Assembly (NCBI RefSeq): GCF_007997085.1
Contig: NZ_VORR01000014.1
Span: 1 to 64,000, forward strand
DNA: 64,000 nucleotides
From: Polaribacter sp. IC066
GTDB taxonomy: Bacteria > Bacteroidota > Bacteroidia > Flavobacteriales > Flavobacteriaceae
Direction: 5' to 3'
Positions 12,584-38,382 of the stretch are shown piece by piece. Below the pieces are notes generated by a model. The model had not been told where the DNA came from. It searched no databases and worked only from the letters and a program-made list of their open reading frames with translations. A program made the translations under genes and the position numbers. Every line of letters starts with the position of its first letter. The stretch's first letter is position 1.

Positions 12584-12994
12584 CTAATTATCTTTTAGTT
12601 TATGATAATTTTTACAGCTTATATTTAATGAAATTTATATATTTGATTACAAGTGTCCACTAAAAATATTTTAGTTCCAAGTAACTTCACGAAAAACAAA
12701 ATATTACACATAAATTGTTGAGTGTAGATTTGAGTTAGACATTTTAATTATGAATAGAATTGTACTATAAACTGTTCTTTTTGTAATTTACACGTTACTC
12801 AAATACAGTTCGTTGAGAAAGTCTTGTTTCACTGCATACGGCAGGCAGGCTGTGTCTTTTAGCGCGGCGGTTTTAAGTCTTTTTAATGGATACTAGTGCT
12901 ATTTAATAAGAGTAGTCTGTACTTTAAAGCGCATGCTCATCAAACCTAAAATTGTATAAATTCTATTTTTTTTTAATCTAAAAACTCATCAACC
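12584..12994. other. Intergenic region before ftcD, no gene seen
   Basis: 410 bases with stops in all frames. A short GC-richer island (about 12836-12870, GGCAGGCAGGCTGTGTC and GCGCGGCGG) stands out from the AT-rich surroundings but forms no convincing gene or RNA. No full consensus promoter was found. Confidence 0.5.
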
Positions 12995-14789: not shown

Positions 14790-15257
14790 ATGGATAATAC
14801 AAAACTAGAAATTATAGCATATCAACCAGCTTATGCGAAAGATTTTTACGATTTAAATGTAGCTTGGCTACAAAAATATTTTTATGTAGAACCTTATGAC
14901 GAAAAAGTTTTAAGCAATCCTAAAGCATATGTTCTAGATGTTGGTGGTTTTATATTTCTAGCAAAATATAATAGTGAAATCGTCGGAGTTATAGCGCTCA
15001 TCAACCAAAAAACATTTTTTGAATTGAGTAAAATGGCCGTTTTACCAAAATACCAAGGACTAAAAATCGGACAACAATTAGTCAATTTCTGTATTAAATT
15101 TGCTAAAGAGAAAGAGTGGAAAAGCATTACTTTATACTCTCACAGGTCATTAGTGCCTGCCATTAATTTGTATAAAAAAATGGGGTTTAAAGAAGTTGAA
15201 CTAGAAAAAGACGTTCATTATGAAAGGGCAAATATTAAGATGCTTTTAGAGTTATAG
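14790..15257 (+). CDS. GNAT family N-acetyltransferase
   Basis: A 155-residue cytoplasmic acetyltransferase. The acetyl-CoA-binding motif A appears as KMAVLPKYQGLKIGQQLVNF (about 90-109; Q/RxxGxG/A pattern), followed by LYSHRSLVPAINLYKKMGFK, the usual motif B. The substrate is not predictable; relatives act on amino groups of amino acids, antibiotics or protein N-termini. It stands alone, 112 bases after ftcD with a structured repeat in between. Confidence 0.85.
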   Translation: MDNTKLEIIAYQPAYAKDFYDLNVAWLQKYFYVEPYDEKVLSNPKAYVLDVGGFIFLAKYNSEIVGVIALINQKTFFELSKMAVLPKYQGLKIGQQLVNFCIKFAKEKEWKSITLYSHRSLVPAINLYKKMGFKEVELEKDVHYERANIKMLLEL

Positions 15258-15303: not shown

Positions 15304-15332
15304 CCTGCAAGGTCTTTTTTTGACCTTGCAGG
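15304..15332. repeat. Perfect hairpin at the left edge of the aroQ/xerD duplication
   Basis: CCTGCAAGGTC and GACCTTGCAGG form an 11-bp stem with a T7 loop. A T-poor flank argues against a classic terminator. The related sequence CCTTGCAGG recurs between argC and proC. The left limit of the duplicated block (15330) falls on the last bases of this hairpin. Confidence 0.6.
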
Positions 15333-15855
15333 GTATTTCTTAATTCATTTCAAATACCGTCAAAGTTATGCTAATACTTAAGATTGTGCAGCAATAAACC
15401 TTCGCAGTAAAAAAATAAAAGATTCTGAAACAAGTTCAGAACTAGAGAAAACTCTGAATAGCCAATTCGTATCCTTTTAATCCAAATCCAAATAAAACAC
15501 CTTTTGCATTAGGAGCAATATAACTATGCTTTCTAAATTCTTCACGTGCATGAATGTTAGAGATATGTACCTCTACAACGGGTGTATTGATTCCTTTTAC
15601 CGCATCGGCAATACCCACAGAAGTATGTGTATATGCTGCTGCGTTTAAAACTATTCCGTCATAATCAAAACCAACTTCGTGTAATTTATCGATAATATCC
15701 CCTTCACTATTCGATTGAAAGCAAGACAATTCTATATTTTTAAATTGCAATTGTAAATCTCTAAAAAAATCTTCAAATGTTTTTGAACCATAGATTTCTG
15801 GTTCTCTTTTTCCGAGAAGATTAAGGTTTGGGTCGTTGATGATAATGATTTTCAT
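15330..15855. repeat. Direct repeat, copy 1 (aroQ and its downstream flank)
   Basis: Aligns without gaps to 16887-17412 at a constant offset of 1557 bases. Long stretches are identical; differences cluster in the middle and at the 5' end of aroQ. Together with the xerD repeat this defines a mosaic tandem duplication. Confidence 0.9.
15442..15855 (-). CDS. aroQ: Type II 3-dehydroquinate dehydratase, copy 1 (altered signature)
   Basis: Shikimate-pathway enzyme converting 3-dehydroquinate to 3-dehydroshikimate. The 137 residues have the catalytic Tyr of KREPEIYG (about 23), NAAAYTHTS (about 73-81), the catalytic His of VEVHISNIHAREEFR and the conserved C-terminal FGFGLKGYELA. Its N-terminus reads MKIIIINDPNLNLLG. 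The class signature normally has Gly where this copy has Asp (NDPN instead of NGPN), so activity may be impaired. The second copy (16999-17412) has the normal Gly. The proteins differ at only about five or six positions. Confidence 0.9.
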   Translation of the reverse strand: MKIIIINDPNLNLLGKREPEIYGSKTFEDFFRDLQLQFKNIELSCFQSNSEGDIIDKLHEVGFDYDGIVLNAAAYTHTSVGIADAVKGINTPVVEVHISNIHAREEFRKHSYIAPNAKGVLFGFGLKGYELAIQSFL

Positions 15856-15885
15856 GGTGTAAAGATGTTAAAAATTGAGCAAAAA

Positions 15886-15911
15886 ATAAGGAAGCAAAAA
15901 TGCTTCCTTAT
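15886..15911 (-). terminator. Intrinsic terminator of the beta-barrel gene
   Basis: Perfect 11-bp stem ATAAGGAAGCA / TGCTTCCTTAT with a 4-base loop. On the minus strand it is followed by a T run (15885-15881). It sits between the barrel gene stop and the aroQ copy 1 start, so aroQ copy 1 is probably not read from the barrel promoter. Confidence 0.75.
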
Positions 15912-15937
15912 ACTATTTTAAATGGTATTAACAATCT

Positions 15938-16555
15938 TTAAAATCTATAGCCTACAGATACTGAAAACACAGAGTTTTGCGCTTTCTCATCATCAGAATC
16001 CATATCTTCTGAATCAATAATATTTGACAAACCAAGGTTGTATCTTGCTCCTATAAATACATTTTCAACTATATCAAAAGAAGCTCCAAAGTTTAAACCA
16101 AAATCGATAGATTTAAAAGAATCTTTAACGTCAACCTCTACAGAAATTGATTCACCTTCAATATTACCCGTTGTTTCAGCATCAGCAGAAAGTAAAAAAC
16201 CAATTTGAGGTCCGAACTCTAATGCAAACTTATCAGAAACTGCATACTTTAACATTAAAGGCACATTTAAATAATTAGCTTTAATTGTTTGTTCAAAACT
16301 ATCAGAACCCTCGGAATCTTCACTTTTAGCACCTTGAGTAGAAAATAATAATTCTGGTTGAAAAGTAAATTTATCCGATAAACCAATTTCTACAAATGCG
16401 CCAATGTTAAAACCTATTTTAGTTTTTGCATCTTCTACATCTCCTGTAAAGTTAGAAAAATTCAAACCCGTTTTTGCTCCAAATTTTACATCTTGTGCAT
16501 TTACATTACTTAAACTTAACAATGCAATTACAGCAATTAACAATACTTTTTTCAT
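15938..16555 (-). CDS. Outer-membrane beta-barrel (porin-like) protein
   Basis: A 205-residue exported barrel of the OMP_b-brl_2 type. Signal peptide 1-20 (ending near NVNAQ), then alternating beta-strand sequence beginning FGAKTGLNFSNFTG, repeated YLNVPLMLKY and FGPQIGFLL blocks, and the terminal aromatic SVSVGYRF that marks outer-membrane barrels. Function is unknown; such proteins are often abundant surface antigens in Flavobacteriia. It sits between aroQ copy 1 and the xerD fragment, in the place occupied by a different gene on the other strand in copy 2. Confidence 0.87.
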   Translation of the reverse strand: MKKVLLIAVIALLSLSNVNAQDVKFGAKTGLNFSNFTGDVEDAKTKIGFNIGAFVEIGLSDKFTFQPELLFSTQGAKSEDSEGSDSFEQTIKANYLNVPLMLKYAVSDKFALEFGPQIGFLLSADAETTGNIEGESISVEVDVKDSFKSIDFGLNFGASFDIVENVFIGARYNLGLSNIIDSEDMDSDDEKAQNSVFSVSVGYRF

Positions 16556-16722
16556 AATTTTTAATTTAATTTATAATAATTAGTTTATTAAAATCACTAT
16601 TTGACATAACACATCCTTAACAATATTTATTATTACTAAAATGTAAAGTGGAATAAATAGCAATTTTAAATTTCAAGGCAAACATAAGTTATTTTTACAA
16701 AATAATAATGTTTTTTTTTTAT

Positions 16723-16888
16723 ATGAAATGGTAAAACGCAATTAGAGATTATCAATTGTATTTAAAAATAGAAAGAGGTTTATCTCAAAACACAATCGAT
16801 AGTTATTATAGAGATTTAGAGAAACTCTTGCTTTTTTTAGAAGAACACGAAATAGACTCCTCTCCTATTAGTGTTGACAAAATTATAG
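16723..16888 (+). pseudogene. xerD: Truncated 5' fragment of xerD (copy 1)
   Basis: Aligns without gaps to 18027-18192, the first 55 codons of the intact xerD. It starts ATGAAATGG then TAA, a nonsense codon where the intact gene has CTA (codon 4). After codon 55 the sequence jumps at 16887/16888 into the downstream flank of aroQ copy 2. The last 75 bases or so before the junction are identical to the intact gene, while the first part differs at about a dozen sites. It cannot encode a recombinase. Confidence 0.92.
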
Positions 16889-17412
16889 GGTATTTCTTAA
16901 TTCATTTCAAATACCGTCAAAGTTATGCTAATACTTACGATTGTGCAGTAATAAACCTTCGCAGTAAAAAAATAAAAGATTCTGAAACAAGTTCAGAACT
17001 AGAGAAAACTCTGAATAGCCAATTCGTATCCTTTTAATCCAAATCCAAATAAAACACCTTTTGCATTGGGAGCAATATAACTATGCTTTCTAAATTCTTC
17101 ACGTGCATGAATGTTAGAGATATGTACCTCTACAACGGGCGTATTGATTCCTTTTACCGCATCACCAATACCCACAGAAGTATGCGTATACGCCGCAGCA
17201 TTTAAAATAATACCGTCATAATCAAAACCAACTTCGTGTAATTTATCGATAATATCCCCTTCACTATTCGATTGAAAGCAAGACAATTCTATATTTTTAA
17301 ATTGCAATTGTAAATCTCTAAAAAAATCTTCAAATGTTTTTGAACCATAGATTTCTGGTTCTCTTTTTCCGAGAAGATTAAGGTTTGGGCCGTTTATGAT
17401 CATTAGTTTCAT
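16887..17412. repeat. Direct repeat, copy 2 (aroQ and its downstream flank)
   Basis: Second copy of 15330-15855. The join to the xerD fragment shares the dinucleotide AG between both parents, a short microhomology at the duplication junction. Confidence 0.9.
16999..17412 (-). CDS. aroQ: Type II 3-dehydroquinate dehydratase, copy 2
   Basis: Same shikimate-pathway enzyme as copy 1, with an intact signature MIINGPNLNLLGKREPEIYG at the N-terminus and all catalytic motifs (Tyr in EIYG, the AAAYTHTS loop, VEVHISNIHAREEF). The frame is open further upstream to 17481, but the family start is the ATG at 17412 (MKLMIINGPN), giving 137 residues, the same as copy 1. This is the copy most likely to supply the activity. 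It lies divergent from the broken gene at 17487. Confidence 0.93.
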   Translation of the reverse strand: MKLMIINGPNLNLLGKREPEIYGSKTFEDFFRDLQLQFKNIELSCFQSNSEGDIIDKLHEVGFDYDGIILNAAAYTHTSVGIGDAVKGINTPVVEVHISNIHAREEFRKHSYIAPNAKGVLFGFGLKGYELAIQSFL

Positions 17413-17486
17413 CACTTTATTTTTAAGATTTAAAAAGTAAATATTATTCTTTTTTTTATATTTGTCGATACAATCAGCCAAAAATT

Positions 17487-17957
17487 ATGAAAAAAATTTT
17501 AGTCTTTACAATTCTCTTATTTTCTTTTGGCTTTGCGCTAGGACAATCAAAAATTATTAAAGCCAACCCGTTAGGCTTGGCTTTTGGAATCGCCAATGCT
17601 GGCTTTGAATTTAAAACTGCCGAAAATCAATCTCTTACGGTTTCTGGAATCTCTTATAATATTTCAGAAATAAATGGTGCTGGGGCTGGCGCCGAATACC
17701 GTTTTTACCTTGCAGAAGAAGATTTAAAAGGATGGCATGCTGGCCCTAGTATCGGTTTTTTTTCGTTAAAAGATGATTCAAATAATTCTGCGACTGTTTT
17801 TAGTATTGCCGTTGAAACTGGTCATCAATAGATTTCTGGGAAGTACTTTGCTTTAAATATTTTTGCAGTATATGGCTTCATTGCTGGCGACAACACTTTA
17901 GATGGTCTTAATGATACTTCTTTAAGTCTTGGTGTTTCTTTGGGGTATGCTTGGTAA
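17487..17957 (+). pseudogene. Exported barrel-like protein gene with an internal stop
   Basis: Starts with a signal peptide (MKKILVFTILLFSFGFALGQ) followed by Gly-rich beta-type sequence (AFGIANAGFEFKT, GAGAGAEYRFYL, HAGPSIGFFSL). A TAG at 17829-17831 interrupts the frame after VETGHQ, but the same frame continues as ISGKYFALNIFAVYGF and ends SLGVSLGYAW at 17957, a proper barrel terminus. A TGG-to-TAG change explains it. The intact product would be about 156 residues. It occupies the aroQ-xerD gap in copy 2, where copy 1 has an unrelated barrel on the other strand. A sequencing error cannot be excluded. Confidence 0.75.
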
Positions 17958-17980
17958 TCTAAACGCTCTAAATATTTTAT

Positions 17981-18006
17981 AAAACCACCTAGTTGAGGTG
18001 GATTTT
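17981..18006 (+). terminator. Probable terminator upstream of xerD
   Basis: CCACCT / AGGTGG stem with a 5-base loop, flanked by AAAA on the left and ATTTTATTT on the right, placed between the broken barrel gene and xerD. Confidence 0.6.
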
Positions 18007-18026
18007 ATTTGTGTAAATTTGTCTTA

Positions 18027-18929
18027 ATGAAATGGCTAAACGCACTAAAAGATTATCAATTATATTTAAAAATTGAGAGAGGTTTGTCTCAAAACACGAT
18101 AGATAGTTATTCTAGAGATTTAGAGAAACTCTTGCTTTTTTTAGAAGAACACGAAATAGACTCCTCTCCTATTAGTGTTGACAAAATTATAGTGCAACAA
18201 TTTATTTATGATGTTGCAAAAAAAGTAAACCCAAGAAGCCAAGCAAGAATTATTTCGGGATTGCGCAGTTTTTTTGATTATTTGGTATTTGAAAATTATA
18301 GAGAAACAAATCCTACAGATTTAATTGAAGCACCAAAAATCGGAAGAAAATTACCAGATACTTTATCCGAAGATGAAATAAATGAACTGATTGCCGCAAT
18401 AGATTTAAGTCATCCGCAAGGAGAAAGAAACAGAACTATTTTAGAAACCATGTATAGTTGTGGTTTAAGAGTTAGTGAACTCATTACCCTAAAAATATCC
18501 GATTTATTTTTTGACGAAGGTTTTATAAAAGTTACTGGTAAAGGAAATAAAGAGCGCTTTGTTCCTATTCATTATAGTGCCCAGAAATATATTTCTATCT
18601 ATATAAATGACATTAGAAGTCATTTAAAACCTATTAAAGGCTTTGAAGATACGTTGTTTTTAAATAGACGCGGAAAAGGTTTAACAAGACAGATGATTTT
18701 TACAATTTTAAAAGATGTGTCCGTTAAAATCAATTTAAAGAAAAAAATAAGTCCGCATACATTAAGACATTCATTTGCCACTCATTTATTAAAAAATGGT
18801 GCCGATTTAAGAGCAATACAGCAAATGTTAGGGCATGAAAGCATTACAACTACAGAAATATATGTGCATTTAGATACAAGTTATTTAAAGGAGGTTGTCG
18901 AAACGTATCATCCAAGAAGCCCTGTCTAA
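18027..18929 (+). CDS. xerD: Site-specific tyrosine recombinase XerD
   Basis: Resolves chromosome dimers at dif with a XerC partner during division. The 300 residues contain an N-terminal SAM-like DNA-binding domain (about 5-90) and a catalytic domain with the first Arg in YSCGLRVSEL, HTLRHSFATHLL (His-x-x-Arg), GHESITTTEIY with the third His and the nucleophilic Tyr. The ATG at 18027 (MKWLNALKDYQLYL) is preferred over an upstream TTG (18009) because the truncated copy starts at the matching ATG and family proteins begin here. It ends just before a strong bidirectional terminator. Confidence 0.95.
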   Translation: MKWLNALKDYQLYLKIERGLSQNTIDSYSRDLEKLLLFLEEHEIDSSPISVDKIIVQQFIYDVAKKVNPRSQARIISGLRSFFDYLVFENYRETNPTDLIEAPKIGRKLPDTLSEDEINELIAAIDLSHPQGERNRTILETMYSCGLRVSELITLKISDLFFDEGFIKVTGKGNKERFVPIHYSAQKYISIYINDIRSHLKPIKGFEDTLFLNRRGKGLTRQMIFTILKDVSVKINLKKKISPHTLRHSFATHLLKNGADLRAIQQMLGHESITTTEIYVHLDTSYLKEVVETYHPRSPV

Positions 18930-19147: not shown

Positions 19148-20716
19148 TTACTTCGCCACATTTACTGCTCTTGTTTCTCTAATAACCGTCACTTTTACCT
19201 GACCGGGATAGGTCATATCATTTTGTATTTTTTGAGAAATACTAAAAGATAATTCCGCTGCTTTGGTATCATTAACTTTACCACTTTCTACCATAACGCG
19301 CAATTCACGACCGGCTTGAATAGCATACGCTTTCTGAACGCCTGTAAACCCAAAAGCAATTTCTTCTAAATCTTTTAAACGCTGAATATAAGAATCTAAC
19401 ACTTGGCGTCTTGCACCTGGTCTTGCTCCTGAAATAGCATCACAAACCTGAACGATTGGTGATAATAAACTCTTCATTTCAATTTCATCGTGGTGCGCTC
19501 CAATAGCATTACAAACTTCTTCTTTTTCACCGTATTTTTCAGCCCATTGCATTCCTAAAAGTGCATGCGGTAATTCGCTTTCTGCATCAGGTACTTTCCC
19601 TATATCATGCAACAAGCCTGCTCTTTTTGCTAATTTTGCATTTAAGCCCATTTCTGAAGCCATAATACCACATAGGTTTGCAACTTCTCGCGAGTGTTGT
19701 AATAAATTTTGACCATAAGAAGAACGATATTTCATTCTTCCAACAGTTTTAATTAACTCTGGGTGCAATCCGTGAATCCCTAAATCTATAACAGTTCTTT
19801 TACCAACTTCTATAATTTCTTGGCTAATTTGTTTTTCTGTTTTTTTAACAACCTCTTCAATTCTTGCTGGGTGAATTCTACCATCAGTAACCAATTTATG
19901 CATTGCCAAACGTGCAATTTCTCTACGCACAGGATCAAAACAAGAAAGTATAATTGCTTCAGGGGTATCATCTACAATAATCTCTACACCTGTTGCTGCT
20001 TCTAGCGCTCTAATATTACGTCCTTCTCTACCTATAATTCGTCCTTTCACATCATCCGACTCCAAATTAAAAACAGATACACAATTTTCTACGGCTTGCT
20101 CTACACCAACTCTTTGTATGGTTCCTAAAACAATTTTTCTTGCTTCTTGTTCAGCTGTTAATTTAGATTCTTCAATAGAAGTTTGTACAAAAGCCATGGC
20201 TTCTGCTTTAGCTTCTTCTTTTAAAGATGCCACCAACTCTTTTTTAGCATCCTCAACAGACAAACCAGAAATTTGCTCTAGCATATCTACATGACGCTTG
20301 TGCATTTTATCTAAATCGCCTTCTTTTTTTTCTAAAAAGTCTAGCTTAAAATTATAATCCTTTTCTTTTTGTTCTATCGATTGATTTAAGCGTTTGTTTT
20401 TGTCAAATTCTGAAGCCACTTTAGATTCTCTATCTCTAATTCTCTTCTCTACATCAGAAATCTTTTTCTCTCTAGATAAGATTACCTTCTCATGTTCTGA
20501 TTTTAATTCTATAAACTTCTCTTTAGCTTGTAAAATTTTATCTTTTTTAACTGATTCTGCATCAATTTTAGCCTCTTTTAAAATAGTAGCGGCTTCTTTT
20601 CTTACGCCGTTAAGTATTTTCTTACCCTTCGATTTTTCCATCGATTTAAAGATTACAAAACCTATTGCAATCCCTGCTATGACTCCCAGTATAATGGGAA
20701 GTATCATTCCATCCAT
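19148..20716 (-). CDS. rny: Ribonuclease Y
   Basis: Membrane-anchored endoribonuclease that starts mRNA decay. The 522 residues show an N-terminal membrane helix (about 5-25, [16 protein letters not shown]), a long charged coiled coil (about 28-200), a KH RNA-binding domain (about 215-270; [15 protein letters not shown]) and an HD metal-dependent phosphohydrolase domain (about 335-430; GLLHDIGKV). All catalytic motifs are present. It lies downstream of zapA and the 6S-like RNA in the same orientation. Confidence 0.95.
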
Positions 20717-38295: not shown

Positions 38296-38382
38296 CAAGG
38301 TTTCAAAAACTTGTAAGTAAAAATTAAATTATAAGTTAAGAATTTGAAACCTTCAAGGTCAAAAAAAGTCCTTGCAGGATAA
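38296..38382. repeat. Inverted repeats between argC and proC
   Basis: AAGGTTTCAAA and TTTGAAACCTT form an 11-bp stem around a loop of about 40 bases, followed by a small CAAGG/CCTTG hairpin with an A7 loop. The CCTTGCAGG block resembles the hairpin at 15304-15332. Confidence 0.6.

Follow-up and report, generated by a model that had tools for sequence, protein, structure and literature searches.

The locus lies in a window of 64,000 nucleotides, the whole stretch of DNA analysed, from the draft genome of Polaribacter sp. IC066. The gene order, taken from the sequence and from self-comparison, is GNAT, inverted repeat, aroQ, barA, a xerD fragment, aroQ with its tail, barB, full-length xerD and a gene of 522 aa. 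The names barA and barB were coined in the present analysis, and the interval between aroQ and xerD is referred to as the slot. On the left, a GNAT acetyltransferase gene (14790-15257, plus strand; Pfam PF00583) adjoins aroQ in many relatives and is the conserved left neighbour of the slot. A Flavo-1 RNA (RF01705; 14709-14785, minus strand, 56.6 bits) is found between this gene and a 560-aa gene, and a repeat of about 250 nt at 12633-12902 has at least nine further matches listed on other contigs (82-90% identity) and no Rfam match at E 0.1.

The GNAT gene is followed by a perfect inverted repeat (15304-15332) with 11-bp arms and a 7-nt loop, whose right arm contains the start of the second unit. 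The left unit comprises aroQ with its 3' tail (15330-15855, minus strand; gene at 15442-15855), in which Asp replaces Gly at residue 8; barA (15938-16555, minus strand), an intact 205-aa outer-membrane beta-barrel gene with matches to PF13568 and PF13505 that makes up the A-type cassette; and the first 166 nt of xerD (16723-16888, plus strand), in which codon 4 is a stop. The right unit comprises aroQ with its 3' tail (16887-17412, minus strand; gene at 16999-17412), which keeps the NGPN motif; barB (17487-17957, plus strand), a barrel-like gene of the B type with an in-frame TAG at 17829-17831 and a match to PF12099 (DUF3575) on its open part; and full-length xerD (18027-18929, plus strand), encoding a tyrosine recombinase (PF00589, PF02899). 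The Pfam assignments are DHquinase_II for both aroQ copies, OMP_b-brl_2 for barA and Phage_integrase for the full xerD. The 522-aa gene, which we take to be rny, is the conserved right neighbour (19148-20716, minus strand) and adjoins xerD in many relatives.

The units meet at 16887-16888, where the bases AG are common to xerD nt 165-166 and to 15330-15331, which confirms by alignment the 2-base microhomology that the original prediction on this DNA had placed there. The second unit begins with the AG of 15330-15331, which leaves a single base before the perfect inverted repeat ends. Border repeats (IS or similar) are absent from the junction, which presents only the AG and the hairpin. The inverted repeat has a second copy with 2 mismatches at 38350-38378, and a further copy with exact arms is present on contig 66.

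Alignment reproduced to the base the two gap-free pairs that had been predicted, 15330-15855 with 16887-17412 (offset 1557) and 16723-16888 with 18027-18192 (offset 1304), and the repeat search listed no other direct repeats of at least 100 nt in the 64-kb window. The middles are unrelated, with exactly the lengths given before (867 and 614 bases), and homology ends at the aroQ and xerD start codons. Within the repeats the differences are very uneven. The aroQ copies differ at 17 of 411 coding positions and, counted in the sense direction, their divergence is 21% at positions 0-24, 0% at 24-199, 14.5% at 199-275 and 0.7% at 275-411, while 2 of the 112 positions of the 3' tail (15330-15441) differ. 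The xerD copies show 12 differences in nt 1-86 (14%) and none in nt 87-166, the last 80. The longest identical run in aroQ measures 177 nt, close to the figure of about 175 bp given before; the xerD stretch is indeed identical, although it is 80 nt long and not about 75. The changes are mainly synonymous overall, as had been stated, except at aroQ codons 3, 4, 8, 69 and 83, where the residue is altered.

This clustering, also claimed beforehand, exceeds chance in both genes. When the differences were placed 20000 times with weights for between-species site variability, identical runs as long as those observed were obtained in 0.15% (aroQ) and 0.78% (xerD) of the placements; unweighted placements gave 0.07% and 0.40%, respectively. 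The segment boundaries in aroQ and xerD were set after the differences were known, and the run-length test alone is independent of them. The test rejects an even spread, so that a plain duplication diverging at an even clock, already disfavoured in the original prediction, is ruled out by the identical runs. Moreover, xerD nt 87-166 varies more between species than nt 1-86, and the nearest of 132 species differs by 25% there. The combination of at least 8 differences in nt 1-86 with at most 2 in nt 87-166 was found in 0 of 8646 species pairs. Divergence of the between-species level in some stretches and its absence in others fits what would be expected from recombinational replacement, and border peaks of mostly synonymous differences are present between the two window copies.

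Three further features, on which the original prediction was silent, concern the integrity of the genes. Where the right aroQ has NGP, the left one has NDP, and the Gly of this NGPN motif is present in 132/132 relatives and in the three PDB matches shown. Codon 4 of the left xerD is TAA (16732-16734), a codon found there in 0/132 relatives; since 62/132 have CAA at this position, one C-to-T change suffices for the stop. The TAG of barB takes the place of a Trp present in 5/5 relatives (four slot relatives and G032). Hence aroQ and xerD are intact on the right and the barrel gene is intact on the left, each unit being without something that the other has. The decay of the left aroQ, marked by the single substitution G8D, is a putative loss of function.

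The slot was then compared across the genus, with one genome per species and no conspecific genome in the set. At the cut-offs used, XerD was matched in 153 and AroQ in 157 of 166 genomes, including that of Polaribacter sp. IC066. From 138 of the 165 relatives, 140 stretches were fetched, and eight without an intact aroQ-xerD pair were dropped (L060, L061, L062, L063, L095, L096, L111 and L127; among them are G041 and G133 of the A type and G032 of the B type), leaving 132 slots from 132 relatives. Slot size ranges from 37 to 3104 bp, with 32 slots under 150 bp, 5 at 150-499 bp and 95 at 500 bp or more. Close pairs may differ in content, as in a case of 749 versus 41 bp at 8% xerD divergence, and in some genomes (e.g. 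G003 and G028) the match coordinates place aroQ and xerD far apart. Slot ORFs joined by single-linkage BLAST (E 1e-5) formed a barrel cluster with members in 91/132 slots, on the minus strand only in 87 and on the plus strand only in 4. This cluster is loose: of the 4 members scanned with Pfam, 2 pass a barrel model, 1 passes DUF3575 and 1 is below the cut-off. From these data, what lies between aroQ and xerD varies across the genus; the contents are mostly barrel-like genes predicted to encode outer-membrane proteins, and the survey marks the slot as fast-changing.

Other contents and irregularities of the slot were also observed. A second kind of cargo is a divergent gene pair, present in 13/132 slots: one member, of about 304 aa, has no match in Pfam at E 0.01, and the other, of 123 aa, has a TM2 domain. 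In the L059 slot this pair is located 752-2100 nt from the aroQ start. In G141 (L161), where the slot is empty, the adjacent xerD is split between two frames, one coding for residues 1-66 and the other for residues 66-297; either the gene is broken or the sequence contains an error. In G032, G041 and G133 a contig breaks at the slot, for which hidden repeats were considered and rejected, as no repeat was seen; G032 has Ns in aroQ. The contig ends of G133 (L063 and L127) presumably carry sequencing adapter letters, and one of these ends lies within the barrel gene of the slot.

The two barrel types behave as alternatives. A barB-like gene is the sole slot content in 4/132 relatives (G005, G011, G006 and G191), and a barA-like gene of at least 45% identity is present in 5/132 slots, each time with other ORFs. 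The A type without the B type is seen in G041 and G009; in G041, barA lies directly between aroQ and xerD, and the contig ends within xerD, so that this genome is outside the 132. Relatives with both middle genes in one interval had been named as evidence that would count against the original prediction, and matches to barA and barB together (E 1e-3) were found in 0/132 intact slots. Likewise, extra pieces of aroQ, xerD, GNAT or rny were found inside 0/132 slots, and the tandem two-unit arrangement in none of them. Two AroQ matches are present in only 3/166 genomes, namely Polaribacter sp. IC066, G105 and G188, and the slot of G105 itself has one aroQ. The claim of two alternative alleles of one locus is thereby borne out, since each barrel type is found without the other among relatives. 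As no slot has both, the window holds an allele of the A type joined head to tail to one of the B type.

The use of aroQ and xerD as homology arms of an exchange site, proposed from the window alone, fares less evenly. The strong turnover between the two genes agrees with it, but a divergence peak at the slot edges is clear in few of the 30 closest species pairs (in xerD) and absent in most, so the role of homology arms is only plausible.

What the window contains is GNAT-aroQ-barA-xerD (first 166 nt) followed by aroQ-barB-xerD, that is, the A and B states in tandem. The explanation preferred here, to which a probability of roughly 0.7 is given on sequence evidence, is that two alternative states of the slot were brought together by cassette exchange, an illegitimate join and subsequent decay. 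First, homologous recombination with its end points within aroQ and xerD would have swapped the cassette together with its edges, so that the two resulting alleles were unlike each other in the cassette and in the adjoining patches. A chromosome or fragment with allele A would then have been joined to allele B by a single illegitimate join at the AG beside the hairpin, the partners being xerD nt 165-166 and the aroQ tail. Both units would then be alike in sequence beyond the exchanged tract, and this would account for the stretch of 80 identical nt in xerD and for the near identity of the aroQ tails. Finally, redundant copies may have decayed, leaving the G8D change and the stop in xerD on the left and the stop in barB on the right. 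That the hairpin stalled a fork or was cut, causing the break in a single event, is a guess. DNA uptake by this strain is possible, as the ComEC (PF03772) and DprA (PF02481) families are present; identical searches also match in E. coli, which makes them a weak pointer to competence.

Two aspects of the sequence sit less easily with these steps. The diverged aroQ patch at nt 199-275 lies 175 identical nt from the cassette, so a second patch or a later gene conversion is needed. Furthermore, the direction of import is contradictory. Over xerD nt 1-86, 23 of the 25 nearest species are closer to the left copy and 1 is tied, which makes the right copy look more foreign; over aroQ nt 0-24, 21 of the 25 are closer to the right copy and 2 are tied, so that here the left copy looks more foreign. 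For aroQ nt 199-275 there is no clear difference in nearness between left and right. The disagreement between xerD and aroQ comes from short segments that may include decay. Therefore, of the predicted import of a diverged allele by recombination in the flanks, the alternative alleles and the diverged edge patches hold, whereas the direction is contradictory and the join is only inferred.

The junction is known from one draft assembly of 169 contigs, and an assembly artefact, in which strains A and B from one culture or sample were set in series instead of in parallel, would be compatible with such a draft and with the fact that, next to the junction, the copies share only 80 and 51 nt past the last difference, which is of the scale of assembly words. 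This is nonetheless unlikely. An A-only strain would have the stop at xerD codon 4 and the replaced Gly in aroQ, each found in 0/132 relatives, and the spread of the intact genes over both units argues against a two-strain error. Contamination is 0.4%, no second contig of the region appeared among the best 40 of 209 and the best 40 of 364 own-genome candidates, and the surrounding 16 kb gave, among the best 40 of 364, only the repeat of about 250 nt and no second copy. Besides, no other long direct repeat is listed in the 64-kb window, and an assembler would hardly join sequences on a 2-nt overlap. Much more improbable, to the point of being nearly negligible, is an ancestral interval that already had the two middle genes and doubled flanks and was lost elsewhere: no supporting evidence was found, 0/132 slots have both barrel types or pieces of the flank genes, and the copies are identical precisely in the part of xerD that varies fastest between species.

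The remaining alternatives change the order or the number of the events. An ordinary tandem duplication in one lineage could have come first, one cassette being replaced afterwards by foreign DNA through homologous recombination; the final map would be identical, with the identical stretches as remains of the original duplication, and nothing in the sequence tells this order from the preferred one. It is considered slightly less probable than the artefact, as the duplication must persist without its later benefit and none of the 132 slots holds an unreplaced duplication. Homology-facilitated illegitimate recombination, reportedly described by de Vries and Wackernagel in 2002, is said to use homology at one end and a few bases at the other, and here only a possible product of it is visible. 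By this route, fully diverged donor DNA could have been integrated in one step and the units homogenized later by gene conversion, which would suit the identical islands adjoining the diverged aroQ patches. Conversion would be needed in at least three stretches, however (xerD nt 87-166, aroQ nt 24-199, and the aroQ end with the non-coding tail), and common descent of the identical stretches is simpler, so this reading is rated a little lower still.

Under the preferred cassette exchange and join, the decay could have had a consequence of its own. With working aroQ and xerD only on the right and a working barrel gene only on the left, a recombination event deleting one unit or the other would tend to come at the price of a gene, and reciprocal decay might thus lock the two-allele tandem. 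This is a tentative proposal, rather doubtful at present. If true, a normally unstable duplication turns permanent and a barrel allele is added at a swapping site, and allele replacement could in this way pass into gene addition.

Several known systems resemble parts of this locus. Replacement flexible genomic islands hold genes for exposed structures, and at their borders the differences, mostly synonymous, reach peaks (Lopez-Perez et al. 2014; PMC4033161), and the likeness extends to one site with different genes in conserved surroundings and synonymous peaks at the edges. Different genes at one site are found here between species across the 132 slots, exposed-structure contents are possible in view of the loose barrel cluster in 91 of them and of the PF13568 match of barA, and the border peaks, present between the window copies, are not general in the 30 closest species pairs. 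The slot differs from the islands as presented there in holding one or a few genes instead of a large cluster, and in having both alternatives in tandem in one genome; the words "tandem" and "duplicat" have 0 occurrences in the main text of PMC4033161. Hotspots without mobile elements, for which double recombination in the flanking core genes was proposed (Oliveira et al. 2017; PMC5635113), share the high turnover between two core genes, and in the six slot ORFs scanned there was no match to a mobility gene. The account of those hotspots concerns variation within species, whereas species of one genus are compared here.

The closest parallel is found in Streptococcus pneumoniae, where transformation gives merodiploids, including one 3,276-bp two-allele duplication without flanking repeats (Johnston et al. 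2013; PMC3784515). As in those merodiploids, two different alleles of one locus stand in tandem on one chromosome, here in one draft assembly. The pneumococcal cases, as reported in that article, were obtained by experiment and under selection, and are as a rule large, with IS repeats at their borders; the present one is natural, about 1.6 kb long, joined at a 2-nt microhomology and decayed. It has no paired border repeats, and small cases free of repeats are among those described in pneumococcus (PMC3784515). A literature search covering mostly non-subscription journals found no paper on the Polaribacter aroQ-xerD slot and, for natural two-allele tandems, nothing closer than the pneumococcal work among the matches listed. 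The locus is thus a natural example that joins known kinds, replacement islands and merodiploids, and not a new system; what is new is the survey of the slot, the lack of both cassettes together in the relatives surveyed, the decay in both units and the contradiction in direction. Sites of surface-gene swapping are usually inferred by comparing strains, and here both alternatives and the scar of their join seem to be kept in one genome, so that the Polaribacter sp. IC066 locus gives a direct view of the tract ends, the junction and the decay that followed.
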